Position numbers and translations under genes: made by a program
DNA from: a virus
Virus record (IMG/VR): IMGVR_UViG_3300045738_001902
Span: 1 to 51,059 of that record
Strand: one strand, 5' to 3'
DNA: 51,059 nucleotides
Notes under the pieces: generated by a model
Database searches by the model: none
What the model was told of the DNA's origin: nothing
The model's input: only the letters and a program-made list of their open reading frames with translations
Part shown: positions 7,643 through 43,542 of the stretch, piece after piece
Position numbering within the stretch: position 1 is the first letter of the stretch
Layout: every line of letters begins with the position of its first letter

Positions 7643-7683
7643 AGGCGTTGCGTAGCGGTCCGAACAGCAGCGGCGGAGGGCCG

Positions 7684-12045: not shown

Positions 12046-12089
12046 GGGCATCTTGCGGCACCGCTCCTGATCGGCGATGGTGCTCGGCA

Positions 12090-12906: not shown

Positions 12907-12957
12907 CGCTGGGGTCCTTTTCGACCATCGGCGCGGCCTGATGCCGTCGCCATAACT

Positions 12958-12990
12958 GTGCCTAATACTAGGCACGGATTTGCGCGTCAA
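12958..12990 (-). promoter_or_regulatory. Promoter with an 18-bp perfect operator palindrome
   Basis: TTGACG (12990-12985), 17 bases, then TATTAG (12967-12962) form a good minus-strand promoter for the 12906 gene. GTGCCTA-ATAC-TAGGCAC (12958-12975) is a perfect 7-bp-arm palindrome lying over the -10. This operator differs from the TGTAAGCG and TGTAGGA families, so a third regulator is implied. Confidence 0.7.
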
Positions 12991-13211
12991 CCCCGGCCCG
13001 CTCACGGGACGCGACATGTCGGGAAACCGCCATGTCAAGATAGAAAACGCGCGTGAGCAGCGGGCGCGAAGCGACCGCGAACAGCGAACGCACTTTATGG
13101 GCGTGACGGGGCGCAGAGCGACCCTGTCGCGCTCGCCACACACACCCCGGCCCGTTGGGGAGCCGGGATATTGGTGGCCAGTTTCTCGGTACCCGATGGG
13201 TCAGGGGTGGT

Positions 13212-13456
13212 GGTTCCGGCTGGAACCGTGTGGAACCGCTGCGAGAACGCCTAAGTCGCTGTGAATGCGCGATAATTCGGCGGGCGCTGGCGGTTCCGGT
13301 CGGCGGGGCCACTTCCATGCATGCACGGCTGTGCGCAGACGCGCGCGCAGACGCGACGGGGTCAAACGCTGGAACCTTGGAACTTCACTTAGTTCTATAG
13401 TCCTTTCAGTTAGTTAGTGGTTCCGTTGGTGGTTCCGGTCGGTTCCGGTTGGAACC
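13212..13456. repeat. Cluster of ~9 GGTTCC/GGAACC hexamers (iteron-like)
   Basis: Exact hexamers occur at 13212, 13222, 13232, 13292, 13371, 13419, 13431, 13441 and 13451. Two are paired as the same module, GGTTCC-N4-GGAACC, at 13212-13227 and 13441-13456, bracketing the cluster. Chance expectation for both hexamers in 245 bases is well under one. Confidence 0.75.
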
Positions 13457-13694
13457 GTCTCGCGCTGCGGTGGCCGAATTGCATATTCTGGCAGGCGGAT
13501 ATCGGAGCGATCTGCTCGCGAACCTCGATCCGGGCGTAGTCAGGGCCTCGCTCGGGGGTGTCGCGGCGAAAGTTTCCGGGTTTTTTGGTCGGCAGCGCGA
13601 CCAGGTGCGCGGCGATCGGCCGGCTGGTGAGCTCGAGCGCGGCGGTGGCGACGAATGGCGGAGTTCTGCGGTTTCGAGCGGCGCGGATCGGCGA

Positions 13695-13718
13695 TGTTGG
13701 AAGGGTGATGTTGGAAGG
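13695..13718 (+). repeat. Tandem pair of TGTTGGAAGG, 14 bases apart
   Basis: Copies at 13695-13704 and 13709-13718 match the motif beside both attachment sites. The 14-base spacing is longer than one helical turn. The pair lies in the gene-poor region. Confidence 0.6.
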
Positions 13719-14149
13719 CATGGGCAAGAGTGGCGGAAATGCGCGGGTTGCGCGCCGAGCGCAGGAGCCTAGCAGGCTTGAGCGCTTCGGCGATCGCGGC
13801 CCCGCGGCCGCCCCGATCGGCCTCGCCCTGGGCGGCCCCCCCATGCCCCCTTTCGCTCCGCTCACCTCGCTCTGGGCCGCGCGCTCGAGCGTGTCGGAAT
13901 TTGGATCCGTGTTCGGCTGCGCCGACCCCGGCGAAGCCTTCCCGGCTCGCAAGGCGCGGTTCGTGCCGGGCGCGGAACCTGACGGTGCGAAAACGGGTCG
14001 GGGTCTGGTCGATACCGCTCCCCACGCCCGACGGGCGGCAACGGGCCGGGGAAAGCCGCTCCGTTCGGGTCGGGGAGCGGGGCCGTTTCGGCTCAATGCT
14101 GGGTGTCCAGCGCTGCGTCGGACGGGTGAAGCTAGCGGAGGCCACGCCG

Positions 14150-14746
14150 GTGTCAACTGATCCACTCGGCCATGGTGGAAAACAGGCGCTTGCCGATGCC
14201 GCGGCGGAGAGCAAGCGGCTGCTCGACGAAGCTGCGCTGGAGGAGCGCGAGGCGCAGGACGATCTACTTGAACCGCTGACGGCAGAGGAAACCGCGACCG
14301 CCCAGGAGGAGCTCGGCGCTCAGGCTGGACCCATGACGGTCGTCCGCCACGCTCGAGAGGCTCGCAAAAAAGGTCGGACGCCGAATTCGCGCAACCGCCG
14401 CACTACCGACACGATCAAATATCTCTCGCAATTCGGCCCCGATCCGTTGGTGGCGTTGATGAAAATCGTCGGCGAGTCCGAAGAGGCGATGGTTGAGCGC
14501 AGTCGCCAAATCGATCCGGTGAAGAAACAGCTCTCGTATGGCGAGGCGAAATCCATCCGGGTCCGGTGTGCCGAGACGCTGGCGCCCTATTTCCACGGCA
14601 AGCAACCCGTGCAGGTCGACGCGACGATCCGGGGCGTGATCGTGCAAGAATTCGTCGGGGAGCCGCGAGCGGCACGGGGGCAGACGATCGATGGCGAGAT
14701 CAAGGGCATTCTCGCGCCGGGCGATGATCGCGAGGGTGCCGAGTGA
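14150..14746 (+). CDS. Terminase small subunit-like protein
   Basis: The 198-residue protein sits directly before the large terminase with a GTGA overlap, the usual TerS position. After an Ala/Glu-rich start it has a basic segment (RHAREARKKGRTPNSRNRRTTDTIKYLSQFG) and then helices (PLVALMKIVGESEEAMVE; GEAKSIRVRCAETLAPYFHGKQP) that recur in phage small terminase or DNA-recognition subunits. I chose GTG 14150 because GGAGG (14137-14141) precedes it by 8 bases. The frame is open to 13730 but the added residues look like non-coding translation. It would recognise the packaging site and recruit TerL. Confidence 0.68.
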   Translation: MSTDPLGHGGKQALADAAAESKRLLDEAALEEREAQDDLLEPLTAEETATAQEELGAQAGPMTVVRHAREARKKGRTPNSRNRRTTDTIKYLSQFGPDPLVALMKIVGESEEAMVERSRQIDPVKKQLSYGEAKSIRVRCAETLAPYFHGKQPVQVDATIRGVIVQEFVGEPRAARGQTIDGEIKGILAPGDDREGAE

Positions 14747-16266
14747 CCGAAGATATCGAAGTCCGCACGCTAAACTCGCCGGGTCCGATCTCGGATGCGT
14801 TTCTGCGGAGCCGGGCATTCATCAAGATCATCATCGGCCCGGTGGGATCGGCCAAGACGATGACGGCGCTGCGAGCGCTTCGGCGGGTCGCGACCAAACA
14901 AGGCGGGCGGCGAGATGCGCGCGGCGTGCTGTGGCGCAAGGCCCGGGTGGGGGTGATCCGCGAAACCTATCCGAACATCGAAAAGAACACGCTGCCGAGC
15001 TGGTTCCGGATCCATCCGGAGAGCGACGGAAAGTTCACCTGGAAGGCGCCGTTCACGCACAAGATCCAGTTGATCCTCGAGCAGGACGCCGATGGCCGGG
15101 CGATCGACGTATGCGAGTTCGAAATCGAGTTCCGCGCGATCGGCGATCGCAGCGTGGAAGAGGCCTGCCGCGGCTGGGAAGTCGTTGCGGTGATGATCGA
15201 CGAAGCGGATCTGCAGCCGGTCGATCTGCTGGCGTTTCTCTCCGGCCGCGTCGGGCGTTCTAGCGACCTCGATCCGACGCTGGTGGTCGATCAGCAGATC
15301 ATCCTCTCGCTCAACGCGCCGTATATGGACAATTGGGTCTATGGGCTCGCCATCGAAAAGAACCTGGGCGAGCTGCTCGATCCGGAACTGATCGAGGCGC
15401 TTGGCGGCCGTGAGCTGCTCGAGGTCTTTATCCAGCCCGGCGGGAGGGAGCCCGACGCGGAGAACCTCCATAATCTGCCGCAGGGTTACTATAAAATCCA
15501 GGCGGCGACGAACAAGCACCGTCCCGATTACGTCGCGCGCATGATCGACAACAAGTTCGTGCCGATGCAGCACGGGCAGCCGGTCAATCCCCGCTTCGAT
15601 TACCGCGATCACGTCCGAAAACTCGAATGGGATCCGTCGCGGGTGCTGACGATCGGCGTCGATCAGGGGCTCAATGCGGCTGCGGCGTTCACTCAGCGGA
15701 CGGCCAATCTCGGGCTGCGGACGCTGCGCGAAGTGGTGAATTTCCGCGACGACGGCAAGCTGGCGAAAATTGGCGGTGCGGCCTTTGGGCAGATGCTCAA
15801 GGCGGCGATCAACGAGCATTTCCCCGATCTACGGCCCGAGATGGTGCGGATCGTCTGCGATCCGGCTGCCTGGAGCGCGGGCGACAACGAAGACGAGCAG
15901 ATGGACTGGGTCCGGATCGTGCGGCGCGAGCTGGGCCTGCCGATCTTCAAGGCGAAATCGAACAAGCCTTCGCTGCGAAACGAGGCGCTCTGGGCGGCGC
16001 TGGAAGAGCGCGACGGCTACGCGGTGGATCCCAGCTGCAAGCACCTGATCAAGGGCCACCTGGGCGGATACCGCTACTCCAAGGGCGAGATGTCGCAGGG
16101 TGAGCGCCGCGGCCATCTGGTCATCGCCGACACCGTCTACACCCACATCTGCGACGCCGAGCAATATGCTGCGCTCGAGGGCGAGCACGTCATCTCGGAC
16201 CTGCGCGGCCATCCGCGGCGCAGCGGGCCGGTCACGCTCGACAGCGATTTCGACGTTTTTGCATAG
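14743..16266 (+). CDS. terL: Terminase large subunit
   Basis: The 507-residue packaging motor has Walker A GPVGSAKT (residues 32-39), an arginine-rich KARVGVIRETYPNIEK segment, Walker B VMIDEAD (about 150-157) and coupling motif SLNAP. The C-terminal RNase H-like nuclease has its first metal aspartate in IGVDQG (about 303-308) and another in IVCDPAAW. It starts at a GTG overlapping the TerS stop. Full length for the family. It cuts the concatemer and drives DNA into the prohead through the portal. Confidence 0.92.
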   Translation: MTEDIEVRTLNSPGPISDAFLRSRAFIKIIIGPVGSAKTMTALRALRRVATKQGGRRDARGVLWRKARVGVIRETYPNIEKNTLPSWFRIHPESDGKFTWKAPFTHKIQLILEQDADGRAIDVCEFEIEFRAIGDRSVEEACRGWEVVAVMIDEADLQPVDLLAFLSGRVGRSSDLDPTLVVDQQIILSLNAPYMDNWVYGLAIEKNLGELLDPELIEALGGRELLEVFIQPGGREPDAENLHNLPQGYYKIQAATNKHRPDYVARMIDNKFVPMQHGQPVNPRFDYRDHVRKLEWDPSRVLTIGVDQGLNAAAAFTQRTANLGLRTLREVVNFRDDGKLAKIGGAAFGQMLKAAINEHFPDLRPEMVRIVCDPAAWSAGDNEDEQMDWVRIVRRELGLPIFKAKSNKPSLRNEALWAALEERDGYAVDPSCKHLIKGHLGGYRYSKGEMSQGERRGHLVIADTVYTHICDAEQYAALEGEHVISDLRGHPRRSGPVTLDSDFDVFA

Positions 16267-25371: not shown

Positions 25372-25879
25372 GCTCGATTTCCACCGGCTCGAGCCGGACG
25401 ATCTGCTCGAGATCGACCGCCAGGAGAGCCAGCTGCTGTGGCTCGGCGCGCCGGGCGACGTGGATCGCGAGAGCGCCGCGATTTTGGCGGCGGAGCCGGT
25501 TGCGTGGACGGCATGGGGCGATGGCCGCATCGTCGCCTGTTTTGGCATCAGCGAGACCTTTCCGGGCGTGCAGGGAGTAGCCTGGGCTCTGCTCGGCCGC
25601 GAAATCGGATCGCAGCACCTGGCGCTGACGCGCTTCATGGCGCGCGAGATCCGCGAATGCGGGTTGGAGCGGCTCGAGCTGCTCGCGAAGGCGAACGAAG
25701 TCGAGGACGTGGCCGAGGCGATCCCCGACATCGATCCGGGAATTCTGACCAAGGTGGCGATGGTCGAACCGACGCCCGAATGTCGGTTCGCACTGCTGCT
25801 GGGAATGCAGCCGATGCATTGCCTGCGCAGGTTCGGCGCGGCGAGCGAAACCTACATGCTGTTCGAGAGGTTTGGCTGA
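25364..25879 (+). CDS. T7 gp13-like internal virion protein (DUF2833/GNAT-like)
   Basis: The 171-residue protein has the GNAT-like layout found in T7 gp13-type proteins: an early ..EPDDLLEIDRQESQLLWLG, a central WTAWGDGRIVACFGISETFPGVQGVAWALLG and a late ..TYMLFERFG. Such proteins in podoviruses are needed for assembly of the internal core; acetyltransferase activity is not established. ATG 25364 overlaps the nozzle gene by 8 bases and the next start is at its stop. Confidence 0.7.
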   Translation: MSRLDFHRLEPDDLLEIDRQESQLLWLGAPGDVDRESAAILAAEPVAWTAWGDGRIVACFGISETFPGVQGVAWALLGREIGSQHLALTRFMAREIRECGLERLELLAKANEVEDVAEAIPDIDPGILTKVAMVEPTPECRFALLLGMQPMHCLRRFGAASETYMLFERFG

Positions 25880-26328
25880 TGGTCCAGGCGCTTCCCTTCC
25901 TCGCGGCGGCCGGATCGATGGTCAAGGGCGTCGGCGGCCTGATGGCCGGCAATGAGAACCGGCGTTCGGCCTATGCGCAGGCGGGCGAGGAGCGGCGCGC
26001 CGCGGCGGGCCAGATCCGGCGGGTGAAGACCGATGCGCGCCGCAAGATCGGCGAGCAGCTGACGATGATGGCGGGCGGCGGCTTCGAGGGTGCGAGCGCC
26101 GGCGGGACCGCGCTCGATGCGCTGCGCGAAAGCCAGGTCGAAGCGGCGATGGATGTGCTCGAGCTGCGGCGGCAGGGAGTGCTGCGCAGCAGGGCGCTCG
26201 AGCGGCAGGGCGACAACGCGCGGCGCGAAGGACGATTCGCGCTGGTCTCGGGCATTTTGGGGGCAGGCAGCTCCTACATTCAGGGCAAGAACGACTGGGC
26301 GCAGGCGCGCGCCGGGGAAGGCGGCTGA
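25879..26328 (+). CDS. Internal virion protein, gp14-like candidate
   Basis: The 149-residue protein has an N-terminal hydrophobic segment (VQALPFLAAAGSMVKGVGGLMAG), then an Arg/Gln/Ala-rich amphipathic helix (AGEERRAAAGQIRRVKTDARRKIGEQLTMMAGGGFEGASAGG) and a GILGAGSSYIQG end. Hydrophobic start followed by long amphipathic helices is characteristic of T7 gp14, which forms a channel in the outer membrane during ejection. It is placed between gp13-like and large internal proteins. TGATG overlap at both ends. Confidence 0.65.
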   Translation: MVQALPFLAAAGSMVKGVGGLMAGNENRRSAYAQAGEERRAAAGQIRRVKTDARRKIGEQLTMMAGGGFEGASAGGTALDALRESQVEAAMDVLELRRQGVLRSRALERQGDNARREGRFALVSGILGAGSSYIQGKNDWAQARAGEGG

Positions 26329-28280
26329 TGGCGAGCCGACCCGAAGGTTATCGCAGCCGGATCGATCCGCGCGCCGGCGCCCCCATGCCGGAGGTCAGCG
26401 CCGCAGCCTATGGCGCGGAAGCGGCCAATGCGGTGATCCAGCTGGGCGAGACGATCCAGTCCGAGAAGCTCCAGAACTACCGGATCGAGCGCAAGCTCGA
26501 CCAGAACCGCCAGTGGACCGGTTTCCAGACCGGCTATGCGGCGGTGCGCGAAGAGATGGCCACGGCCGCGCGCGAGGGCCGGCAAAGCGATGCGCCGGGC
26601 CATGCGGACCGGATGGCCGAGCTTTATCGCGAGCGGCAGACAGCGCTGCTCGAGGGGATCGGCGACGACGAAGTGCGCCGGCGGGCAAAGGGCTCGCTCG
26701 AGGACTGGGGCGCCCAGTTCCGTACCGGCGAGGCCGATTGGGAGACATTGCGCGCCGGGGAAGTCGCGGCCGAGCAGTTCGAGCAGAGCCGCGACGCCAG
26801 CGCGAACCGCGTCCGGAGGCTGGAAAGCCCGCAGGACTATGGTCTCGAGCTGGAAATCCAGCTCGACGCGATCGACGGGCTGGCGGCGTCTGACAAGGTC
26901 AAGGAGCAGCTGCGCGAGGAAACCGAGCAGGTGCTCGCGATCGGCTTCCTGCAGGGCCGGATCGACAGTGATCCGCAAGTCGCGAAGGTGATGCTCGAGA
27001 GCGGCGCGTTCGACGAAGTTCTGCAGCCCAACCAGGTCGAGGCCTTGCTCAATGGCAGCGCGGTCGAAATGCGGCGGATCGACGCGGCGCAACAGCAGGC
27101 GATCGCGCAGGAGAAATCCGAGTTCCGCGAGACCTTGCGCGATTTCAACGTCCGCGAAGGGCAGGGCCGCGATGTCACCGCCGAGATCCCTGCGCTCCTC
27201 GAGCGGGCGCGCGCCTATGGCATGGACGATGTCGTCAGCCAGCTCGAGGGTTCGGCGACGACGGCCGAGTTCGGGCGGGTTTATGAAGGCGCGAGCCCTA
27301 TCCAGCTAGAGCAGCGACTTGCGGAGCTGGGCGCCAAGGACAGCCTTACCGATCAGGAGGCGATGGAGCGTCAGTGGATCGAGGACAAGCTGCCGTCGAT
27401 CTCGACCCGCTTCAACGACGATCCGGTGGGGTTCTATGCGCGCGAGGGCGGGGCCGGTGCTCCCCCTCCGCTCGACTTCGAGGACCCGGCATCGATCGCC
27501 GCGCGGTCGCGCTGGGCGGCGGGCGCGGCAGGCGCAAGCGGTCGCCCGGTTCCGGTCCTGTCCAAGGGCGAAGCCGACCAGCTACGCAGCACATACGAGG
27601 ACGGCCGGCAGGGCGAGGCGCAGGTGATGGCGCTGCTCGACCGGCTGCCGGTAGCGCAGCGGATGGCGGCCGCGAAGATGATCGACCCGGGCGACCGGAC
27701 GCTGCCGATCGTGGCGACGCTCAATCCGGCCTCGCGGGCGCAGGCCCGGCGGGGTCGCGAGGCATTGCGGGCGAACGGCAAGCTGCTCTCCGAGATCATC
27801 AAGGCCGATATGGATCTCGAGGAGGACGTGCTCGAGGTCAACCGGCAGTTCGAGCGGGCGCTGGTCGCGGTTCCGCCCGATCAGCGCAACGCGATCTTCG
27901 AGACCGCAAAACAACTCGCGGCGGGGCAGGTCGACAAGTTCGGCGGGGGAATGGACGGGCGGCTGTGGCGCCTGGTGCTCAGCCAGGCAGTCGGCGCGCA
28001 GAACGTCAATGGGGAGCGCCGCGGTGGCTTCGCGATCTGGGGCGACCGCTGGTTTCTCGTGCCCGAGGGCCGCACCGCCAACGAGTTCCGCGATATCGTG
28101 CTGCGAACCGCCGCGCGCGGCGAGGTCAAGCCGGTCAATCCCGATGGTTCGCCGGCGCGGCTCGGGCGGGCGTTCCCGGTCGCGGTGGGTGGCGGGCTCT
28201 ACGAATACCGGACGGCAAGCGGTGCGGTTGTGATGGGCAACAACGGCAAGCCCTGGCGCGTAAAGGTTCCGGGCCAGTGA
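26328..28280 (+). CDS. Large internal (ejected) virion protein, gp15-like candidate
   Basis: The 650-residue protein is strongly helical and Glu/Arg/Gln-rich throughout, with predicted coiled coils over about residues 30-330 and few motifs. It starts MASRPEGYRSRIDPRAGAPMPEVSAAAYGAEAANAVIQLGETIQ. In T7-like phages the gene order gp13-gp14-gp15-gp16 is conserved, and gp15 is a long helical protein injected with the DNA. That order, size and composition are the basis of the call. ATG 26328 overlaps the previous stop as TGATG and its end overlaps the next start. Confidence 0.6.
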   Translation: MASRPEGYRSRIDPRAGAPMPEVSAAAYGAEAANAVIQLGETIQSEKLQNYRIERKLDQNRQWTGFQTGYAAVREEMATAAREGRQSDAPGHADRMAELYRERQTALLEGIGDDEVRRRAKGSLEDWGAQFRTGEADWETLRAGEVAAEQFEQSRDASANRVRRLESPQDYGLELEIQLDAIDGLAASDKVKEQLREETEQVLAIGFLQGRIDSDPQVAKVMLESGAFDEVLQPNQVEALLNGSAVEMRRIDAAQQQAIAQEKSEFRETLRDFNVREGQGRDVTAEIPALLERARAYGMDDVVSQLEGSATTAEFGRVYEGASPIQLEQRLAELGAKDSLTDQEAMERQWIEDKLPSISTRFNDDPVGFYAREGGAGAPPPLDFEDPASIAARSRWAAGAAGASGRPVPVLSKGEADQLRSTYEDGRQGEAQVMALLDRLPVAQRMAAAKMIDPGDRTLPIVATLNPASRAQARRGREALRANGKLLSEIIKADMDLEEDVLEVNRQFERALVAVPPDQRNAIFETAKQLAAGQVDKFGGGMDGRLWRLVLSQAVGAQNVNGERRGGFAIWGDRWFLVPEGRTANEFRDIVLRTAARGEVKPVNPDGSPARLGRAFPVAVGGGLYEYRTASGAVVMGNNGKPWRVKVPGQ

Positions 28281-31200
28281 GCGGGCCGGTCCTCGATTTC
28301 GATCCGCAGGCCGCGAGCCTGCCGCAGGCGCGCGCGGCCGAGACGCGCGAAGCGCCCGGCATGCTGGATCTGATCGGCGCCGGTGCCAGGGTCGAGGCGG
28401 ACCGGGTCGATCAGGTGCAGGATCTGCGCCGGGCGGAAGCCTATCGGCCCCTGATCGAGGCGCTGGTGGAGAACGGCGTCGATCGCCGAGATCTGCATCA
28501 CGGCGCTCCGGGGATGTTCGGGATCGGCCCGGAACTGCTCGGCATGCCGGATTACGAGCGCATCTGGCGTGAGGCACGGCGGCGCGGAGTCGACGGGCTG
28601 CCCGAGACCCGCGAGGCGTTCGAGCAGAATGCGTTCCGGAGGGGTGGAGAGCGCGATCGCGACCAGGAGACGCTCGGCCGCGCAGAAGGCGTCGCCGGCG
28701 TGGCGGCAGGCTTCGTCGGCGCGATGGCAGGCAGCTTCGCGGATCCGATCAACGTCTATTCGCTGCCCTTCGGCGGCGCCGGCCGGACGATCGCGCAGCG
28801 GATCCTTTCCGAAGGCCTGGTCGGCGCCGGCGTCGAGGGAGCGCAGGCGCTGAGCATGAGCGACAATTACGCGCGGATGGGGGAGGAATACGGCATAGCC
28901 GAGGCGGCGCAGGACATCGCGGTCGCCGGAGCGGGCGCCGCGGCGCTGCGTGGCGGGATCGAGATCGCGCCGGGGATCGATGCGCGCGCCTACGATTTGG
29001 CGCGGCCGGTGCGCGAAGCGATCGACGGCGCGTTCGCCGAGCGCGATATCGCGCGGGCTTTCGCGCGGTCGGTCCCGGAAGAGTTGCGCACGCCCGAACA
29101 GGAGGCGGCGCTGCACCTGCTGACCCGGCAGGCGGAGGTCGAGGAATCCAGCCCCTATGTCGCGACCCACGAAGCGGTCGATCGCCATGTCTCGCAGATG
29201 GAAGAGGCGCTGGCCGCGCTCGAGGAGGGACGGATTGCGCGTCCGGTCGAGCCCGGGGGGGAAATGCGGCCGGAGGTGGAGGAAGTCGCTCCGCTCGCGC
29301 CGGCGCGCGCGGCGCAGTCGGTGCCATCTGCAGCGGCGGCGGCCCGCGCCGATTTCGGACAGGTGAAGGCGGCGATCCGGGGACCGGAAAGCGGCGGGAA
29401 CGACGGTGCGGAGAACGCGCTGGGATCCTCCGCCAGCGGGCGGTACCAGTTCATCGAGAGCACCTTCAAGCGGCTCTATGCGCGCGAATTCGGCGGGGGC
29501 GGCGGCGCGGCGTCGCGCGCCTGGGCGACGCGGCGCTTCGACGTCGGGATCCAGGAGCGGTTGATGGATCGGCTTCTGGCGGACAATGCGAGCCAGCTGG
29601 AGCGCGCCGGCGTGGTCGCCGACACCGGCAATCTCTACCTCGCCCACTTCGCCGGCGCTGCGAAAGCGGTGGAGCTGGCGCGCGCGCCGCGCGATGCGCC
29701 GGTGAGCGCCTATTTCTCGCAGCGCGCGATCGCGCAGAACCCGGCCTATCTGGGTGGCGGCAAGACGGTCGGCCAGGCGATCGATGTCATTCGCGGCAAG
29801 GTGGGTGGCGGTGTCGGCGTGCCGGCGGCGGGCGCGCGCGAGACCAGGCTCGGTAATCTCGAGCTCGACGACGAACCCGTGCTGCGCCCCGAGGCGCTCG
29901 ATGCCGAACGGCCGCTGGTCTCGGTGGGCGGGCAGGCTGTGCCGATCGCGCGGATCGAGGCAAGTGCAATCGGGGTCGATGCCGAGCTGATGCAGTTCAA
30001 GAGCGGCGGCGATGCCTTCGGCGTGACCGACCGGCTGCAGGGGATCGAGGAATGGGACCCGATCGCGGCCGGGATGGTGACGGTGTGGGAAGGCGCGGAC
30101 GGGCGCCGGTTGATCGCCGATGGTCACCAGCGGCTCGGGCTCGCCAGGCGGATCGAGGCGCAGGGCGGCGGGTCGATCGGGCTCAACGCTTTCGTGCTGC
30201 GCGAAAGCGAGGGCTATTCGGAGGTGGATGCGCGGATCGTCACCGCATTGAAGAACATCGGCGAGGGCACCGGCACGGCGGTGGATGCGGCCAAGGTGTT
30301 TCGCGATGTCGGGCCGGAAGGCGAGGCGCTGCTGCGGCGGCTGCCGCCACGCTCGGCGCTGGTGCGAGACGGCAAGGCGCTGTCGCGTCTCGGCGACGAT
30401 GCGTTCGGCGCGGTGGTCAACGAAGTCATCCCGGAAAATTACGGTGCCGCGATCGGCGCGCTGGTGCCCGATCGGGCGCTGCATTCGGCGATGGTGCGGA
30501 TCCTCGTCGAGACCGAACCGCCCAACCGCGTCCAGGCCGAGGCGATCCTGCGGCAAGCTCTCGAGGCGGGCTTTACCAGGGAGACGCAGGACAGCCTGTT
30601 CGGAAGCGAGGAACTGGTCACCGGACTGTTCGCCCAACGCGCCAAGCTGCTCGACCGGGCCTTGCGCGAAATGCGCAAGATGAAGGGCGCGTTCCAGGTC
30701 GCCGCGCGCAATGCCGAGACGCTGGAAAGCGGCGGCAACCGGATCGACGTGGCGGGCAGCCAGGCTTCGGCGGACGGCAATGCGCGCGCGCTTGCGCTGG
30801 TCGATCGGCTTGCGCTAAGAAAGGGAAATGCGGTCAATGAACTTCTCGACCAGGCAGCAAGGCGGCTCGCCGACGGCGACCGGATCGCCGCGGTCCTCCG
30901 CGACTTCGTCGCCGGGATCCGAGGGCTCGACCTCGACAAGCTTGATGTCGGCGGAGAGGCTGGATCAGCTCGCGCAGCTGGCGACGGGGCTGGCGGAAGC
31001 GGACGCGCTGGCGAGCCTCAAGGGCAGGCTGGCCAATACGCTCGGGACGAAGCCGCTCGGGACTCGGGCGAAGAACTGACCCCGCGCGAGCGCGATGCGC
31101 TTGCCGAACAGGGTGACCACTCCCCTCTCATAGACGACGACGCGGCGCGACTCTTCGACGACGACGCCGGCGATGGCGTGCGTTCGGTCTCGGAGAGCGT

Positions 31201-31471
31201 CTGGCACGATATCGAGGCCCAGGCAGATTTCGCCGCGCCTACCGCTGCGCAGCGCCGGACCGCGCTCGAACAGCAGGCGGAGGGCCGTGCCCGCGCTGTC
31301 GCGCCCCAGCGTGCCGCCGGAGAAGACGGCGGGCTGTTCGACAACCAGGACACCACCGGATCCCTATTCGATCTCGACGACGGCAAGGGGCCGCGCGCCG
31401 CGGCTGCGATCCGGGGCGAGATCGAGGCCGAGCGCAGCGGGCTCGAGGAGATCCGCAAATGTCTGAAATGA
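28277..31471 (+). CDS. Giant ejected virion protein with transglycosylase and ParB-like domains
   Basis: The 1064-residue protein starts at a GTG overlapping the previous stop. Residues ~360-500 read as a lytic transglycosylase: KAAIRGPESGG (catalytic Glu in the ES motif), SSASGRYQFIESTF, FDVGIQERLMDRLL and LYLAHFAGAAKA follow the usual order. Residues ~550-680 look like a ParB/Srx-like domain: VPIARIEASAIG, then RRLIADGHQRLGLARR, then ALKNIGEGTGTAVDAAKVFRD. The gene order makes it the gp16 counterpart, whose transglycosylase cuts the wall during DNA ejection. Linking a ParB-like module to an ejected protein is a known theme of phage polyvalent proteins. The C-terminal ~150 residues are acidic and disordered. 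Confidence 0.78.
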   Translation: MSGPVLDFDPQAASLPQARAAETREAPGMLDLIGAGARVEADRVDQVQDLRRAEAYRPLIEALVENGVDRRDLHHGAPGMFGIGPELLGMPDYERIWREARRRGVDGLPETREAFEQNAFRRGGERDRDQETLGRAEGVAGVAAGFVGAMAGSFADPINVYSLPFGGAGRTIAQRILSEGLVGAGVEGAQALSMSDNYARMGEEYGIAEAAQDIAVAGAGAAALRGGIEIAPGIDARAYDLARPVREAIDGAFAERDIARAFARSVPEELRTPEQEAALHLLTRQAEVEESSPYVATHEAVDRHVSQMEEALAALEEGRIARPVEPGGEMRPEVEEVAPLAPARAAQSVPSAAAAARADFGQVKAAIRGPESGGNDGAENALGSSASGRYQFIESTFKRLYAREFGGGGGAASRAWATRRFDVGIQERLMDRLLADNASQLERAGVVADTGNLYLAHFAGAAKAVELARAPRDAPVSAYFSQRAIAQNPAYLGGGKTVGQAIDVIRGKVGGGVGVPAAGARETRLGNLELDDEPVLRPEALDAERPLVSVGGQAVPIARIEASAIGVDAELMQFKSGGDAFGVTDRLQGIEEWDPIAAGMVTVWEGADGRRLIADGHQRLGLARRIEAQGGGSIGLNAFVLRESEGYSEVDARIVTALKNIGEGTGTAVDAAKVFRDVGPEGEALLRRLPPRSALVRDGKALSRLGDDAFGAVVNEVIPENYGAAIGALVPDRALHSAMVRILVETEPPNRVQAEAILRQALEAGFTRETQDSLFGSEELVTGLFAQRAKLLDRALREMRKMKGAFQVAARNAETLESGGNRIDVAGSQASADGNARALALVDRLALRKGNAVNELLDQAARRLADGDRIAAVLRDFVAGIRGLDLDKLDVGGEAGSARAAGDGAGGSGRAGEPQGQAGQYARDEAARDSGEELTPRERDALAEQGDHSPLIDDDAARLFDDDAGDGVRSVSESVWHDIEAQADFAAPTAAQRRTALEQQAEGRARAVAPQRAAGEDGGLFDNQDTTGSLFDLDDGKGPRAAAAIRGEIEAERSGLEEIRKCLK

Positions 31472-31483
31472 GGAGCTGACACC

Positions 31484-31771
31484 ATGGCGATCGAATTGAC
31501 GTTTCACGGGTTCCGGACGGTGGATGCCGGCGGCGCCCACACGCCGCACCTGCCGGCGCAGACCGGAGATGCGGTGACGGTCGCGGACGGCGCGGTCTCG
31601 GCCGGACTCGCAGACGGCGGGATCTATCGCGTCGTCGCGACCAGCGCCTGCCGGGTCCGCTTTGGAAGCGATCCCGCCGATGCGACCGGCGGCGAATACT
31701 GGCCGCAGGGCCATGTCGCGCTGCGCACTGTCGCCGGTGCCAGCAAGGTCGCGGTGGACGCAATCGCGTGA
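31484..31771 (+). CDS. Small protein between internal virion genes
   Basis: The 95-residue beta-rich protein (MAIELTFHGFRTVDAGGAHTPHLPAQTGDAVTVADGAVSAGLADGGIYRVVATSACRVRFG) has no membrane segment. ATG 31484 lies 9 bases after AGGAGC. Its stop overlaps the next start as GTGA. Placement and beta content suggest a small head or tail accessory, for example a fibre-base or decoration protein. Not recognised. Confidence 0.5.
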   Translation: MAIELTFHGFRTVDAGGAHTPHLPAQTGDAVTVADGAVSAGLADGGIYRVVATSACRVRFGSDPADATGGEYWPQGHVALRTVAGASKVAVDAIA

Positions 31772-34239
31772 GCCTGGGCGCGTGCCTCCCAGGACTTGCC
31801 GCCGAGGGCAAGATCAGCGCCGACCAGGCGGCGGAGGCGCGTGTGCTCTATGACGAGCTGCTGGAGGAATACGCGCGCAGCGGGAGCCGCGAGAGCGCCG
31901 AGGCACTGGCGAGCACCGCGGCGATCGCCGCGATGGAGCGGCGGATCACTCGCAAGGAATTCCTCGCCGGGCTGACGATCCGCCGCCGCCAGGCGATCGC
32001 GGCCGATCTGGCTTCCTACGGCAGCGACATCGGCGATGCGCGGTTCAAATCGCAGCCGGCGGGCGGCGGCGAGGGTGGCCCGCCGATCGATCCCGGTGCC
32101 GCGACCGCGCTGATCGGCGGGCGCGATCCGCGCGCGCGGTTCTCGAGCGTGGAGGGCCGGCGGCGGGCGATCGTGGGCGATGCGCAGATCGAGCTCGACC
32201 GGTTCCTCGCGGAGCATTCGGCCAATCTTAGGGGCAAGGTGCGCAACAAGGCGCAGCTGACCGACATGGTGCGCGAGCTGTTCGGCGAGGACAGCGGCAA
32301 CGCCAGCGCGCGGGCGATGGCCGAAGCCTGGCGGCGCACCTCGGAGCGGCTGCGCCAGCGGTTCAACGCCGCCGGCGGCGACATCGGTTTCCGCGCGGAC
32401 TGGGGCCTGCCGCAGGCACACGACTGGCAGAAGGTCCGCAAGGCGGGTTACGCTGCCTGGCGCGAAGCGATCTGGGGCCGGTTGGATCGCCAGAAGATGA
32501 TCGACGGCCGCACCGGGCGTCAGTTCTCCGACGATGCGCTGGAAGAGGTGCTCAGCGACGTCTGGGAGACGATCCGGAGCGACGGGACCTTCGACATGAC
32601 GCCGGGAGCTCCGGGCGGCAAGGCGCTGGCCAACCAGCGGACCGATGCGCGCTTCCTCGCGTTCAAGTCTGCCGACGACTGGATGGGCTACCAGCAGGAG
32701 TTCGGGACGGTCGACGCCTATAGCGCGATGGTCGGCCATATCGAGGGGATGGCGCGCGATATCGCGGCGCTCGAGATCCTCGGGCCCAACCCGAATGCGA
32801 CCCTGCAATGGGTCAAGGACACGGTGACGCAGAGCGCCGGCCGCGATCGTTCGCCCGATGCCAAGGGACCCAAGCGCGCCGAGACGGCAGGGCGTGCGGT
32901 CGACCGGTTGTGGGACGAATATCGCGGAGCGCATCAGGCGGTCGACAACGAGTGGATCGCACTCGGCTTTTCGGGGCTGCGCGCCTTTCAGGTTGCGACC
33001 AAGCTGGGCGGCGCGGCGCTCACCGCGGTCAGCGATGCCGCGTTCTTCCGCACCCGCAAGAAGTTCAACGGGCTCGCCAGTGCGCGCGGGGTTCCCGGCT
33101 ATCTCAAGCTGATGGCGCCGGGCTCGATCGAGGCGCAGAAGATGGCGGTGCGCCGCGGGCTGATTGCCGAGGAATGGTCGAGCCGCACGGCGGGGCAGAG
33201 CCGGTTCCTGATGGAGGAGCTGACCGGGCATATCCCGCGCACGTTGGCGAGCGCGGTGCTGCGGATCTCGCTGCTCAATCGCCACACGCAGTCGCTGCGC
33301 TGGGTCTATGGCATGGAATCGATCGCTACCTATACCGAGGCGGTCGGCAAGGGCTTCGGCGAGCTCGAGCCGGAATTGCGCAGCGCGCTGCAGCGCTACG
33401 GCATGGGCGCCGAGGAATGGGACCGGATCCGCTCCGCGCCGCTCGAGCAGGACGGCGGGGTGGAATGGCTCGCGCCGCACAATCTCGAGGATCGCCAGCT
33501 GGCGGCGCGGTTCATGGAGATGATCCACACCGAAAAGGATATCGCGGTGCCGGTCGCGGATCTCGAGACGCGCTCGTTGTTCAATTCGATGCTGCCGCGC
33601 GGGACCCTGCGCGGCGAGATCGGGCGCAGCGCTCTCCAGTTCAAGAGCTTCGGCCTCTCGGTGCTGCTTTCGCAGTCGAAGCAGGTGATGGCGATGAACA
33701 CCGGAACTGCGGCGCGTTATGCTGGCGGTCTGCTGCTCGGAACGACGTTGATGGGCGGGGTCGCGATGCAACTCAAGGCGATCGCGGCAGGCAAGGATCC
33801 GCGTCCGATGGAAGACGGCGATTTCTGGTTTGCTGCCCTGCTGCAGGGCGGCGGTCTCGGGATCTACGGCGACTTCCTCTATGCGGCCGAGAGCCGATCG
33901 GGCGGCGGGTTCGCGCAGACGCTCGCCGGGCCGCTGGTCGACGACGTCCAGGGGGTCGCCAATCTCGCCAAGGCGAAGGATCCGCGCCGCAGCCTGGTGC
34001 GCGAAGCGAAGGGATTCCTGCCGGGTAACAACCTCTGGTACGCCCGCACAGCCTTCGATCGGATGGTCGCCGACCAGATCGACGAAGAGATCAATCCCGA
34101 CATCCGCAATTCGCGCCGCCGGCTCGAACGCTACGCCGCCGAGCAGGGCACCGATTACTGGTGGTCGCCCGGCGACACCGCACCCGAGCGCGCGCCTGAT
34201 CTGGCCAACGCCCTGGAAGAAGGCCCTATCGATGAATGA
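31768..34239 (+). CDS. Large virion protein, likely ejected internal protein
   Basis: The 823-residue protein starts at GTG 31768 and is mostly helical with a basic N-terminal third. Notable are an N-terminal EEYARSGSRESAEALASTAAIAAME helix, a FSGLRAFQVATKLGGAALTAVSDAAFFRTR hydrophobic segment (about 400-430) and another, GGLLLGTTLMGGVAMQLKAIA (about 650-672). Long soluble helices with isolated membrane-like segments are usual in ejection proteins. It sits after the gp16-like gene and before the tail fibre. It might alternatively be a second core protein. No enzymatic motif was found. Confidence 0.55.
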   Translation: MSLGACLPGLAAEGKISADQAAEARVLYDELLEEYARSGSRESAEALASTAAIAAMERRITRKEFLAGLTIRRRQAIAADLASYGSDIGDARFKSQPAGGGEGGPPIDPGAATALIGGRDPRARFSSVEGRRRAIVGDAQIELDRFLAEHSANLRGKVRNKAQLTDMVRELFGEDSGNASARAMAEAWRRTSERLRQRFNAAGGDIGFRADWGLPQAHDWQKVRKAGYAAWREAIWGRLDRQKMIDGRTGRQFSDDALEEVLSDVWETIRSDGTFDMTPGAPGGKALANQRTDARFLAFKSADDWMGYQQEFGTVDAYSAMVGHIEGMARDIAALEILGPNPNATLQWVKDTVTQSAGRDRSPDAKGPKRAETAGRAVDRLWDEYRGAHQAVDNEWIALGFSGLRAFQVATKLGGAALTAVSDAAFFRTRKKFNGLASARGVPGYLKLMAPGSIEAQKMAVRRGLIAEEWSSRTAGQSRFLMEELTGHIPRTLASAVLRISLLNRHTQSLRWVYGMESIATYTEAVGKGFGELEPELRSALQRYGMGAEEWDRIRSAPLEQDGGVEWLAPHNLEDRQLAARFMEMIHTEKDIAVPVADLETRSLFNSMLPRGTLRGEIGRSALQFKSFGLSVLLSQSKQVMAMNTGTAARYAGGLLLGTTLMGGVAMQLKAIAAGKDPRPMEDGDFWFAALLQGGGLGIYGDFLYAAESRSGGGFAQTLAGPLVDDVQGVANLAKAKDPRRSLVREAKGFLPGNNLWYARTAFDRMVADQIDEEINPDIRNSRRRLERYAAEQGTDYWWSPGDTAPERAPDLANALEEGPIDE

Positions 34240-34248: not shown

Positions 34249-37095
34249 ATGACCGTCGCCGAGCAAATCCCGCGCGTCGAGTATCTCGAGGATGCCAGCA
34301 CGGTCTCCTTCCCGGTTCCGTTCCGATATCGCGCGCCGGCTGATATCAAGGCGAGCCGGCGTTCGGCGACCGGTCCTGCGGTGCAGCTGGTCTTCGGGAC
34401 CGACTACAGCGTCTCGCCGGGCGATACGAATGCGGGCGGCACGCTGACCGTGACCGCCGCCGCTGTCGATGGAACCGTGCTGGAGATCTGGCGGGAGACC
34501 CCGCGGGTGCAGGATGCCGATTACACGGCATCGGGACCGTTCAAGGCGGAAAGCCATGAAGCCGCGATGGATCGCGCGATCCTCGTGGCGCAGGAGAACG
34601 ATCTCGATATCGCGCGAACCGCGCGGGTGCCGAGCGGCGAGCCTGGTCTGACGATTCCGCCCGCAGCTGAACGCAAGGGGAAATACTGGCTCTACGATCC
34701 GTTCACGGGGCAACCGGCGCTGGACGATCCCGACAATTTCGCGGCGCCGGCGCGGGGGGAGGCGGACCGGTCGGCGCTCGAGGCGGACAGGGCCGAGAGC
34801 GCGCTGCTGGCGACGGAGCTGGTGCGCGACCAGGCGGCCGATCTCGTGCTGCCGGAAAACATCTTCGTCAACACGACCCTCGAGATTGCCGAACTGGACA
34901 CCGCTCCGGGTGTGACCTTCAAGCTGGTGAACCTCGAAACGGGCATCGCCACCGTCTATCTGCGTACCGAGGGTGGATCGACCGAGCTTTATTCCGAAGC
35001 CTCGACGGCAGCGCTTGCTGCTGCGACCGGATCGGGCAAGGTGGGGTTCGACCAAATCGGGGGAGCCGCCGAGCCGGGCACCGTGGCAGCCCGCCTGCGG
35101 GAATCGCCTTCTCCTTTCGATCCGGCTTTTGGTGTCGTCGGAGAGAATGGCGTCGACGACACCGCCGCCTGGCAGATCTATTTCAATTACTGCCGCGCGA
35201 ACGGCTACGTTCCGCATTCGCCCCGGCCGGTGATCAGCGAGATTTCCGACACACTCGTTCTGAAGCCGTATTACAATCTGCTCGACAATTTCGCCGTTCG
35301 ATCGTCCGGGGCTGCAATGCTCGGGAACGTCACGTTCCTCTATACGGGGCTGCGCGATCGACCGGCTCTCGAGGTGGGAACGCCGCCCGATCCTGCCAAT
35401 CCCTACGAGAACCAATGGCTGGAAAGCCGCATCGAGCTTCCCTCTGTGTTCGCGGCAGGGTTCGATGTCAGCTGGCCGGGCGGATTGAACGATGCATCGC
35501 CGGACTGCGGAATCTACATCCATCGGATGATCCGCGACCAGATCGTCGAGAACTGGGTGGCCGGGTTCACCAGTGGAATAATCTACGAGGGTTCGGCCTG
35601 GAACACGATTTCCGGCAAGCACATCGCGGATAACAAGTTCGGTCGCGTCTATACTTCGCTCGGATCGAATACCGAAGACAGCTTCACCAACGAGAACACG
35701 GTAATCGGCGGGCGGATCGGCCACACCAGCAAGTCTCGCGGCCTCGGCTTCGCTGCATTGCAGGTATTCACCTGGGACAAGGTGTCCTCCTATCGCGGGC
35801 ACAACACCAATCGCTTCATCAACCCCTGCCTCGAAAGCAGCGGCTTTGTCGAAGGCGATATCCGGGTCCCGGTGTGGTGCGATGGCGCGGGAGTGGACAA
35901 CCGCTTCGAGAAGGTCCGAATGGAAAGCTGCAACGGGCCGATCATGGTCTGTGATGGCGGTGGCTCGGGCGATTTCTGCAGGAACAACCAGATCGATCTG
36001 CTCTATGCATCCAGCGAGGAGCAGCAGATCCGCGTCGTCAACAAGGGCGGCGCGGTCAGCAATTACGTCACCGGGCTGGGCGCGCAGAAGCGGGTGTGGA
36101 GTTCGGGGGAAATCGCCTCGGGCATCAAGTCGAGCGGCGCCAGTACTGCGACGATCTGCGACCCGCGCCTGTTCTTCCTGATCGAGAACAGCCCCGCCTT
36201 CCCCGCCGACATTCGCCGGACCGTCGACTTTGTCTGGAGGGTGGGCGGGCATCGCAATGCGATCCTGTTGAACCAGGCCGGTAGCTGCAGGATCGCGGTG
36301 GCAATCGATGCGAGCTTCATCAAGGAATTCACGCTTAGCTACGCTGCCTTGCTCGGCTTTTCGGGGAGACCCAATTTCTTCGCGCTGGATGCTGCCGGAT
36401 CGCTGCTTTCCGGACTCGCCACCGAAACCGAAATCAACCCGTTGACCGGCGTAGCCTATGCCGATGAACCCTATGTCAAGGGAACCAGCTCGGCGGCGAC
36501 GGGCGGCGGGCTGATCAGCAGCGGCGGTGGCTACGGCGTCGGCACGGATTCCGAAACCTTCAAGTCGATGGCGATCAGCGTGCGCGACGAGGTGAAGACC
36601 CTGATTTTCTCCGTGACGGGGGCGTCGCGCGCGGCTGCTCTCCAAAGCATGGAAGTGATCGGCCATAGCGCCATGATGCTGCCGGGGTCGGCGTTCCCGA
36701 CGATCGACGGCATGTCGGCGCTGCACGTCTTCTCGCTGCTGGACGACAGCGCCACCATCATGGCCACGGCAAACCCCGCCACGGCGGGACGGCATGGCTA
36801 TTATGCGCGCGGTGAATCGGTGGGGAACGCGAACCCGGCATCGGGTCAGCCCCAGGGCTGGATCTGTACGACCAGCGGGTGGCTCGCCTCGGCATGGGTG
36901 GCATCGACCATCTACGACGTGCCGGGCGAACTCATCACCAGCGACGGCGGCAAGATCTACGAGCTGGTGACGCCGGGCACGGCGGCCGGGAGCGGCGGGC
37001 CGACCGGCTCGGGCTCCTGGATCGAGGATGGCACCTGCGTGTGGGCATATATCGGTGTCAAGGCGGCGTTCGCGCCCTTGGCGAACCTGCCGTGA
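34249..37095 (+). CDS. Tail fibre / tailspike with T7-like N-terminus and beta-helix body
   Basis: The 948-residue protein begins MTVAEQIPRVEYLEDASTVSFPVPFRYRAPADIKASR. The F.VPF.Y....DI.V....G....L..GTDYSV start is that of T7 gp17-type fibre N-terminal domains that anchor to the tail. After a short coiled coil (EADRSALEADRAESALLATELVRDQAAD) the body from ~300 has a pectate-lyase-like entry motif (GENGVDDTAAWQIYFNYCRANGY) and beta-helix repeats rich in Gly, Asn and Ile. Host recognition and perhaps capsule or polysaccharide cleavage are expected. Ends in a small ...YIGVKAAFAPLANLP domain. Confidence 0.8.
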   Translation: MTVAEQIPRVEYLEDASTVSFPVPFRYRAPADIKASRRSATGPAVQLVFGTDYSVSPGDTNAGGTLTVTAAAVDGTVLEIWRETPRVQDADYTASGPFKAESHEAAMDRAILVAQENDLDIARTARVPSGEPGLTIPPAAERKGKYWLYDPFTGQPALDDPDNFAAPARGEADRSALEADRAESALLATELVRDQAADLVLPENIFVNTTLEIAELDTAPGVTFKLVNLETGIATVYLRTEGGSTELYSEASTAALAAATGSGKVGFDQIGGAAEPGTVAARLRESPSPFDPAFGVVGENGVDDTAAWQIYFNYCRANGYVPHSPRPVISEISDTLVLKPYYNLLDNFAVRSSGAAMLGNVTFLYTGLRDRPALEVGTPPDPANPYENQWLESRIELPSVFAAGFDVSWPGGLNDASPDCGIYIHRMIRDQIVENWVAGFTSGIIYEGSAWNTISGKHIADNKFGRVYTSLGSNTEDSFTNENTVIGGRIGHTSKSRGLGFAALQVFTWDKVSSYRGHNTNRFINPCLESSGFVEGDIRVPVWCDGAGVDNRFEKVRMESCNGPIMVCDGGGSGDFCRNNQIDLLYASSEEQQIRVVNKGGAVSNYVTGLGAQKRVWSSGEIASGIKSSGASTATICDPRLFFLIENSPAFPADIRRTVDFVWRVGGHRNAILLNQAGSCRIAVAIDASFIKEFTLSYAALLGFSGRPNFFALDAAGSLLSGLATETEINPLTGVAYADEPYVKGTSSAATGGGLISSGGGYGVGTDSETFKSMAISVRDEVKTLIFSVTGASRAAALQSMEVIGHSAMMLPGSAFPTIDGMSALHVFSLLDDSATIMATANPATAGRHGYYARGESVGNANPASGQPQGWICTTSGWLASAWVASTIYDVPGELITSDGGKIYELVTPGTAAGSGGPTGSGSWIEDGTCVWAYIGVKAAFAPLANLP

Positions 37096-39532: not shown

Positions 39533-39554
39533 CCATGTTGGAATTCCAACATGG
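39533..39554. repeat. 22-bp perfect palindrome near attR
   Basis: CCATGTTG and CAACATGG are joined by GAATTC, giving a perfect palindrome 46 bases left of the tRNA. The arms include TGTTGGAA, the core of the TGTTGGAAGG motif, so it may be a symmetrical protein site at the prophage end. Confidence 0.7.
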
Positions 39555-39558: not shown

Positions 39559-39589
39559 TGTTGGAAGGTTTCACATGAAACCACGGATT
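39559..39589 (+). promoter_or_regulatory. TGTTGGAAGG motif and candidate prophage-borne tRNA promoter
   Basis: TGTTGGAAGG occupies 39559-39568. TTGGAA (39561-39566), 17 bases and CGGATT (39584-39589) would give a start a few bases before the tRNA; the -10 is poor. GGTTTC-ACAT-GAAACC (39567-39582) is an inverted repeat in the same stretch. The prophage must supply a promoter for the restored tRNA. Confidence 0.35.
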
Positions 39590-39600: not shown

Positions 39601-39637
39601 GCGGGTGTAGCTCAATGGTAGAGCAGCAGCTTCCCAA
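39601..39637 (+). repeat. attR: 5' half of the restored tRNA-Gly
   Basis: Identical to 263-299. Here the phage-carried 5' half joins the resident 3' half, which keeps the gene intact. The crossover lies within these 37 bases, which end in the anticodon loop. Confidence 0.9.
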
Positions 39638-39674: not shown

Positions 39675-39819
39675 CAATCCTGAAATTGCCCCACAAAACC
39701 GCCATTCAGGAGGCGGTAGTGCGCACACCTTCATCCATAGCTTCTCACACGGCCTCTCACAGGCTGTCCGTATCCGTGAACAGGACGCCGAACGCGTTCG
39801 GCGAACGGGTTCGCTGAGG

Positions 39820-41625: not shown

Positions 41626-43542
41626 ATGAAGATCACGACCAATACCCGCCTTGCGACAACGCTGCTGGCGGGCGCCGCCATGTTCGCCATCACCTCGCCC
41701 GCCCAGGCCGATCCCACCCCCGAATGCAATGATTCCGAAACCAATGCGACCGAATGCGGCAGCGATTCCGACGCAACCGCAGCGGGCGCAACCGCGGTCG
41801 GCAATGGCGCGGTCGCGGATGGCGTCGATGCCGTCGCCGTGGGCAGCGACGATGCGGGCGCCGCTCCGGCTACCGCGACCGGGCCCTCGACCACCGCGAT
41901 AGGCGGCGAAAGCCTCGCCAGCGGCCCGGGTGCGACCGCGCTCGGCTGGCGTGCCGCCGCCGACGCCGAACGCGCGACCGCGCTGGGTCACCTCGCCACC
42001 GCGCAGGGCGTTCGTTCGACCGCTGTCGGCGAGAACGCCGATGCGCAGACCGACTTCAGCACCGCGATCGGCAATGAATCGATCGCCAATGGCGTCGACG
42101 CGTTGGCGGTCGGCGACACCGCCGTCGCCATGGGCAATTCCACGACCGCCGTCGGCGGCGAGAGCGTGGCGATGAACCCGGGTTCGAGCGCCTTCGGCTG
42201 GCAGGCCGAGGCGAACGGCGAACGCTCCACCGCGATCGGCCATCTGGCGCAATCGGGAGGCTTTGCCTCCACTTCGATGGGTGAAGCGGCCGCGGCGCTT
42301 GGTCGCGGCGGCATCGCCATCGGCGGGAACACCGATGGGGGCGCCTTCGGCGCGCTGGCCACCGACGATGCCGGCATTGCGCTGGGCAGCGATTCCGAAG
42401 CGCGCCAAGCCGGCGCGATTGCTATCGGCAGCGATGCCGATGGTGGTGGCGACGGCGCGGTTGCCAACGGCGTGGACGCCTTGGCGCTTGGTGCAGATGC
42501 CATGGCGATCGGAAACTCGACCACCGCGCTCGGCGGCGAAAGCCTTGCCAACACGCCGGGTTCGACAGCACTTGGCTGGCAGGCGGTTGCCACGGGTGCG
42601 ATGGGCACTGCGGTCGGCCACCAGTCCACCGCTTCGGGCGATCAGAGCTTCGCCGGCGGCGAGGATTCGGTCGCATCGGGCAGCAATTCGGTCGCCATCG
42701 GCAACACCGCACAGGCGACCGGCGGCGATTCGATCGCAATCGGCGGCAATCGCGACGGTGCCACCGGCTTCTCGACAATAGCCAGCGGGCCCTCGACCAC
42801 AGTGGTCGGCGGCCAGTCCTCGGCGATCGGCGCGGGCGCCACCGCCTATGGCTGGCGCGCCAACGCCACCGCCGAGCGGGCCACCGCGCTGGGCCATCTC
42901 GCCACCGCATCGGGCGTCCGCTCGGTTTCGGTCGGCGAAGCCGCCACCGCGAGCGGCGACGGTGCGATCGCAATGGGCAATCAGGCCGTCGCATCGGGGG
43001 TGAACTCGGTCGCAATCGGCAATGGTGCCACCGCCACCAACGACGGCCAAGTCGTGGTCGCCTCGCTGGGCGCCAGCAGCACCTCGCAGATCGGCCCGAT
43101 CGCGGTGGTCACCGCGGATGCCAACGGCACGCTGGGGGTCAGCTCCTCCGCAGGACTGAGCAATCTCGCGAGCTTCTCCGCCGTCCAGGCCAACAGCACC
43201 GCGATCGCGGGCAATTCCGCCCTGATTGCTGGGAACAGCAGCGCGATCATGGGTCTGCAGGATCGCCAGAGTGTGCTGTTCGATCTGGCGCAGGAGAACA
43301 GCACCCAGGCGCGGCGAGCCAATGAAGGCGTCGCGCTGGCGCTGGCGATGGAATCGCCGGTCATCATGCCGGGCAAAACCTTCGGCGTGGCCGGCGGCTT
43401 CGGCTATTACAACGACCGCGTCGCGGGCTCGGCGTCCTTCGGGCTGCGGGTCAGCGAAAGCACCGCGGTGACCGGCGGCGTCGGGGTCGGCTTCGACTCG
43501 GGCGAGGTCGGCGCGCGCGCCGGTTTCCAGGCCTCCTGGTAA
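41626..43542 (+). CDS. YadA-like trimeric autotransporter adhesin
   Basis: The 638-residue protein has a signal peptide (MKITTNTRLATTLLAGAAMFAITSPAQA, cut after AQA). The passenger is made of about 30 short YadA-head repeats of the type NSVAIG(N)(G/T)A, such as DAVAVGSDD and NSVAIGNGATA, and larger ~80-residue blocks repeated three times with STTA(V/I)GGESLA..PGSTALGWQA. A short stalk (QANSTAIAGNSALIAGNSSAIMG) leads to the C-terminal anchor MPGKTFGVAGGFGYYNDRVAGSASFGLRVSESTAVTGGVGVGFD...FQASW. It would trimerise in the outer membrane and mediate adhesion. A long open frame on the opposite strand is a repeat artefact. Confidence 0.88.
   Translation: MKITTNTRLATTLLAGAAMFAITSPAQADPTPECNDSETNATECGSDSDATAAGATAVGNGAVADGVDAVAVGSDDAGAAPATATGPSTTAIGGESLASGPGATALGWRAAADAERATALGHLATAQGVRSTAVGENADAQTDFSTAIGNESIANGVDALAVGDTAVAMGNSTTAVGGESVAMNPGSSAFGWQAEANGERSTAIGHLAQSGGFASTSMGEAAAALGRGGIAIGGNTDGGAFGALATDDAGIALGSDSEARQAGAIAIGSDADGGGDGAVANGVDALALGADAMAIGNSTTALGGESLANTPGSTALGWQAVATGAMGTAVGHQSTASGDQSFAGGEDSVASGSNSVAIGNTAQATGGDSIAIGGNRDGATGFSTIASGPSTTVVGGQSSAIGAGATAYGWRANATAERATALGHLATASGVRSVSVGEAATASGDGAIAMGNQAVASGVNSVAIGNGATATNDGQVVVASLGASSTSQIGPIAVVTADANGTLGVSSSAGLSNLASFSAVQANSTAIAGNSALIAGNSSAIMGLQDRQSVLFDLAQENSTQARRANEGVALALAMESPVIMPGKTFGVAGGFGYYNDRVAGSASFGLRVSESTAVTGGVGVGFDSGEVGARAGFQASW

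Follow-up and report, generated by a model that had tools for sequence, protein, structure and literature searches.

A putative virion protein in the gp16 slot of a T7-like prophage joins a transglycosylase domain to a divergent ParB-type module

The 51,059-nt stretch of DNA analysed here (the window) looks, from its sequence, like an integrated temperate phage, a T7-like podovirus. An identical 37-bp repeat corresponding to the 5' half of tRNA-Gly(CCC) occurs at 263-299 and at 39601-39637, the second copy lying within an intact tRNA gene, and the two copies are likely the prophage ends. That the repeat duplicates the 5' and not the 3' half of the tRNA is unusual. Past the right copy lie bacterial-type genes, including a PAS/HWE histidine kinase and an AraC regulator, as well as a host adhesin-like YadA-head repeat protein (10 stretches; 41626-43542) with internal DNA repeats. 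Perfect palindromes of 22 bp (39533-39554) and 18 bp (39786-39803) stand around the right attachment site and may be sites for a recombinase or a regulator.

The late genes are arranged in the order seen in T7, beginning with terminase, a portal-type adaptor, capsid and gp11-/gp12-like tail proteins, and continuing with a gp14-like protein, a gp15-position protein, the gene at 28277-31471, a 95-aa ORF, a phrog_684 virion protein and the tail fibre. The 'portal protein' label of phrog_21 was dropped because a portal-type head-tail adaptor (phrog_332) is already encoded in the window. The genes of the second part of this order are:

25438..26328, plus strand: gp14-like internal virion protein (phrog_418, E 3e-10)
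26328..28280, plus strand: gp15-position internal protein (phrog_992, E 2e-7; synteny)
28277..31471, plus strand: modular ejection-type virion protein by its open frame, relatives and conserved slot, 1064 aa (N-terminal region, transglycosylase, ParB-like module, tail)
31768..34239, plus strand: virion structural protein after the slot (phrog_684, E 3e-164)
34249..37095, plus strand: tail fibre with a T7-type N-terminus (sequence matches)

The initial annotation had placed the 28277-31471 gene at the gp16 position, and this placement held: in the window and in most transglycosylase-bearing relatives, the gene follows gp12, gp14 and gp15 and precedes phrog_684 and the tail fibre. T7 gp16 occupies the same slot, from gp15 to the tail fibre, and also carries a transglycosylase, although here phrog_684 and the 95-aa ORF precede the fibre as well. 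We rejected homology to T7 gp16 by sequence, as T7 gp16 matches phrog_342 whereas the 28277-31471 protein does not. Furthermore, the transglycosylase of T7 gp16 is N-terminal, while the domain here is internal and phiKZ gp144-like, and a ParB module takes the place of the C-terminal part of T7 gp16.

The GTG start of the gene shares bases with the stop codon of the gene before it (GTGA at 28277-28280), and the reading as a single protein is kept in independent relatives, at 62% over the full length in L002 and 52% over aa 1-560 in L004. The two ends of the protein are:

28277..29341, plus strand: N-terminal helical region (aa 1-355; AlphaFold2 model of aa 1-520 and hydropathy; kept in relatives with and without ParB)
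30953..31468, plus strand: acidic C-terminal tail (aa 893-1064; common to relatives with other cargo, L074 and L004)

In the aa 1-520 model, confidence is low across much of aa 150-355. Stretches at aa 136-154, 176-194 and 214-232 are rich in Ala and Gly and moderately hydrophobic, with hydropathy below that typical of transmembrane segments. A Foldseek search with the same model returned transglycosylases alone as matches of note and no ejection protein. Weak matches of the protein to an FMN-binding protein and to PilJ were dismissed as chance.

A Pfam search of the protein gave no family match for the transglycosylase domain, which was recovered with profiles and a structural model:

29342..29812, plus strand: lytic transglycosylase domain (aa ~356-512; hmmsearch to phiKZ gp144; Foldseek 3bkh)
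29387..29389, plus strand: putative catalytic Glu371 (on the ES of the gp144 alignment)

With 25 relatives in the profile, hmmsearch matched phiKZ gp144 at E = 1e-17 (9e-7 with a smaller profile), and Glu371 is invariant in 25/25 relatives, which bears out the transglycosylase proposed earlier. The best PDB match of the aa 1-520 model is likewise gp144 (3bkh, E 1.4e-3, prob 1.00), with pLDDT at about 90 or above across the domain. Fold and sequence are thus alike, but phiKZ gp144 is a separate endolysin protein, whereas the domain here sits in a gp16-slot fusion.

Beyond the transglycosylase lies a ParB-like module that spans aa ~553-892 of the 1064 residues:

29933..30265, plus strand: ParB-type NTP-binding domain (aa ~553-663; AlphaFold2/Foldseek to ParB/Noc; hhalign register)
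30269..30577, plus strand: ParB-type central helix-turn-helix (HTH) DNA-binding domain (aa ~665-767; hhalign; Foldseek to Noc 6y93)
30578..30952, plus strand: helical extension of the module (aa 768-892; alignment and model; kept in most members, unmatched in L082/L083)

The earlier suggestion of a ParB/Srx-like fold at aa 540-700 was examined by structure prediction. The AlphaFold2 model of the module, built on a 32-sequence alignment, has a mean pLDDT of 86, and all 14 PDB matches at E <= 1e-3 (Foldseek) are ParB or Noc, aligned over 209-231 columns. As these matches cover both parts, the predicted structure contains a ParB NTP domain followed by a ParB HTH domain. Over the whole module, TM-scores by target reach only about 0.5, a modest value that probably reflects a different orientation of the domains; the DNA-binding domain of Noc alone (6y93) gave a TMt of 0.64-0.66, against 0.45 for human sulfiredoxin. 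The fold was therefore confirmed, while the extent proposed for it stood in part: aa 540-700 extends little beyond the NTP-binding half, but ParB homology reaches about aa 767 and the conserved module about aa 892.

We also aligned a 39-member profile of the module to a 74-member ParB profile with hhalign, using column shuffles and reversal as controls. Module positions 17-231 aligned with ParB positions 50-251 in one colinear block with a score of 37.0, compared with a mean of 14.8 and a maximum of 25.6 for 100 column shuffles and 13.6 for the reversed profile. Aligned on its own, the HTH segment reached 38.5 (E 1.3e-5), with 16.3 as the highest score among 60 shuffles. In contrast, the NTP-binding segment alone scored 14.0, no better than its shuffles (mean 13.1), so that the assignment of this half rests on fold and shared register. 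Direct sequence searches (phmmer to PDB, Pfam, NCBIfam) gave no ParB match, and shallow hhalign profiles gave a ParB score inside the shuffle range; only deeper profiles and structure revealed ParB. PF02195, PF17762 and TIGR00180 were absent among the families listed at E <= 1 for 32 module members (the Pfam listing comprised 25 of 32 families). The DdrB-ParB model PF18763 had no match in the window at E <= 10 and was absent among the families listed for 32 relatives.

The module thus shares with chromosomal ParB, Noc and KorB the two-domain architecture, the fold, the order of the three nucleotide boxes and the HTH homology. It differs in having a helical extension instead of the usual C-terminal dimerisation domain, in its fusion to a transglycosylase virion protein, and in being missed by PF02195, PF17762 and TIGR00180. 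It extends the ParB-CTPase fold by a divergent branch that escapes models such as PF02195, which a 2025 survey used (PMC12704722).

The hhalign register puts Q573 on the Q of QPR, GHQR on GERR and KN on EN, giving three putative nucleotide boxes:

29993..30001, plus strand: QPR-equivalent box Q573-F574-K575 (equivalent of Caulobacter crescentus Q58/R60, PMC8367383)
30122..30133, plus strand: GERR-equivalent box G616-H617-Q618-R619 (E102 replaced by His, R104 kept)
30251..30256, plus strand: EN(IQR)-equivalent box K659-N660 (C. crescentus N136 kept, E135 replaced by Lys)

Q573, G616, H617, R619 and N660 are invariant in 39/39 relatives. In C. crescentus ParB, CTP binding is weakened or lost when R60, R103, R104, N136 or R139 is mutated, hydrolysis requires Q58 and E135, and E102A gives a clamp locked shut (PMC8367383). 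The equivalents of Q58, R104 and N136 are kept here and that of R60 is Lys, whereas E102, R103, E135 and R139 correspond to His, Gln, Lys and Glu, respectively. Compared with ParB, Noc and KorB, the hydrolysis-linked Glu of GERR is always His and two arginines are replaced. It is probable, judging from these residues, that the module binds an NTP with altered chemistry, though the replaced R103, R139 and E102 equivalents may mean that NTP binding is lost or altered; the identity of the nucleotide is not predictable from sequence (PMC12704722).

The fusion of a transglycosylase with a ParB-superfamily domain, suggested in the initial annotation, is real: both the phiKZ gp144-like domain and the ParB/Noc fold lie within the single 1064-aa open frame. 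Its comparison with polyvalent phage proteins was also apt, in that one large protein among virion genes carries unrelated activities, a transglycosylase and a ParB module. This general theme is already known, since Iyer et al. 2017 (PMC5512222) described polyvalent proteins that include a lysozyme fused to a DdrB-like ParB, e.g., in an Acinetobacter prophage. The two systems are alike in placing a peptidoglycan enzyme and a ParB-superfamily domain among late phage genes. However, the module described here is outside the DdrB family (PF18763), has an HTH domain, and occupies a T7-like gp16 slot, a defined cargo slot between conserved ends. New features are the presence of both ParB/Noc domains, a sequence too divergent for current models, the location in the gp16 slot, and evidence that cargo is exchanged between conserved ends. 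Among the open-access papers searched, none pairs ParB with an internal virion protein or with phage ejection proteins.

The segment at aa 536-892 is common to 42 viral loci and 8 bacterial contigs, mostly of sphingomonads and Hyphomicrobiales. Flanking genes are constant among relatives, with gp12, gp14 and gp15 before the slot and phrog_684 and the fibre after it. Same-slot relatives keep the N-terminus, many also the transglycosylase and the C-terminal tail, and exchange the central cargo, which may be ParB, ParB with a Zeta toxin, a GntR-like winged helix, or unnamed domains. For example, L004 and L072 are 52% identical over aa 1-560 and have part of the C-terminal tail in common, with a GntR-like winged helix (Pfam E 1.6e-4, below the cut-off) and unnamed sequence replacing ParB. 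Six others (L074, L081, L084, L091, L094, L099) join the N-terminus and transglycosylase to other, mostly unnamed cargo, and several share C-terminal motifs. Marine relatives have no detectable gp144-like transglycosylase; in many of them a Zeta-toxin domain (PF06414, E down to 1e-18) comes after ParB. L095 combines transglycosylase, ParB and Zeta. The module also occurs in the gp16 slot of Nohivirus S31C1, within a 1484-aa protein, and in cyanophage P-SCSP1a (7675-15390), within a 2571-aa protein annotated as hypothetical and located directly before the tail fibre.

Slot and domain content suggest that the 28277-31471 protein would be transferred to the host along with the DNA. We tentatively favour, at somewhat less than an even chance, a modular gp16-slot ejection protein whose ParB-type module binds an NTP and engages DNA after ejection. 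The protein would sit in the virion core and exit via the tail with the gp14- and gp15-like proteins, and its transglycosylase would open the peptidoglycan. The ParB-type module would then reach the host cytoplasm, where an NTP (CTP, ATP or GTP) would occupy its pocket, and the HTH domain would engage DNA, acting as a clamp, anchor or ratchet; the simplest candidate for this DNA is the phage DNA that enters first. Incoming phage DNA is the more likely partner: as the module carries ParB's own DNA-binding domain, gripping entering phage DNA fits better than action on host DNA or restriction systems. The latter had been proposed in the initial annotation, but we found nothing pointing there, and the module is not of the DdrB type.

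In T7, gp16 combines a periplasmic transglycosylase with a C-terminal half modelled in the cytoplasm; this half, gp16-C, binds DNA without sequence preference and is a proposed genome clamp near 850 bp (PMC8954989). By analogy, clamping of the gp16-C kind would be a fitting task for a ParB-type NTP/DNA module located distally in a gp16-slot protein. The winged helix found at the ParB position in L004, another DNA-binding fold, fits a DNA-gripping role. Conversely, the HTH surface residues vary, the module is net acidic, the protein has no detectable homology to T7 gp16, and many other slot cargoes are unnamed, all of which count against the favoured reading. A bolder form, which we think unlikely, is that the ejection machine has an exchangeable DNA-gripping tip encoded by the slot, in this clade a ParB-derived, NTP-gated clamp that would load on the first-entering phage DNA and hold or ratchet it; if true, phage genome entry would be driven or controlled by a recruited ParB switch. 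The T7 gp16-C clamp was proposed without a known fold; the ParB-type module offers a concrete candidate, with testable residues, for how podoviruses pull or hold DNA at entry.

Exchange of cargo between conserved ends could also reflect an arms race with hosts, with the module injected as an effector against defence that would bind a restriction or other defence protein of the host. The polyvalent-protein theme is compatible with this, and T4 Ip2/Ip3 are examples of injected anti-restriction proteins (PMC12373910). Nevertheless, we consider it doubtful, as we found nothing to connect the module to a defence system and the ParB module is kept across diverse hosts and marine phages, unlike a narrow inhibitor. 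A structural or packaging role, in which the module would arrange DNA or the inner core within the capsid and do nothing further once ejected, would agree with the location among virion genes and with P1 DdrB, a head protein that is annotated as helping to add DarB to the capsid (PMC9024508). The transglycosylase fusion implies delivery, however, and the pocket residues are invariant, making a purely structural function quite improbable. We regard as similarly improbable an NTP-regulated DdrB-like DNase that nicks host or rival-element DNA after injection, following the reading of Iyer et al. 2017. Both the ParB/Srx-superfamily fold and the known fusions of DdrB-type ParB with lysozyme in phage late genes (PMC5512222) speak for such an enzyme, but PF18763 does not match, the module has an additional ParB HTH domain, and we identified no metal-binding nuclease motif.

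A search for a canonical parS site gave a single near-parS sequence, GGTTTCACATGAAACC, at 39567-39582 of the window, just inside the right prophage end; it is imperfect, with a chance expectation of 0.04 for the 16-mer and 0.82 for the 14-mer core. In a scan of the genomes of relatives, one site shared a contig with a prophage (G002), lying ~17 kb downstream of its gp16-slot gene and probably outside the prophage. Given a lone imperfect site in the window and the probable location of the G002 site, we attach no function to these sites. Delivery of a KorB-/Noc-like regulator that represses or activates phage or host genes early in infection is the least probable alternative and very unlikely: it draws on the two-domain architecture common to KorB and Noc (PMC12704722), the temperate appearance of the phage and the failure to find a T7-type RNA polymerase in the window (by a weak search whose control matched nowhere), but no operator is known and the sole parS-like site has no counterpart inside the G002 prophage. 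Compared with these alternatives, the ejected NTP- and DNA-binding module remains our preferred reading.

The defined cargo slot is also a place to seek further injected effectors, including Zeta-toxin kinases. A Zeta-toxin kinase domain lies C-terminal to the ParB module in L018, L022-L030, L032, L035, L036, L055 and L095, in most of these loci just upstream of the phrog_684-like virion gene, and this toxin-like domain may be injected. A segment with no Pfam match (around 'EFLAxRGGxxDxxGxDL', later a 'GYF/GYL/GWF' motif) recurs in different cargoes at the centre of the slot protein in L004, L074, L091, L098 and L099. Finally, the same ParB module is present in a 3912-aa virion-region protein, annotated as hypothetical, of Ruegeria phage 45A6 (L056, 6802-18540).
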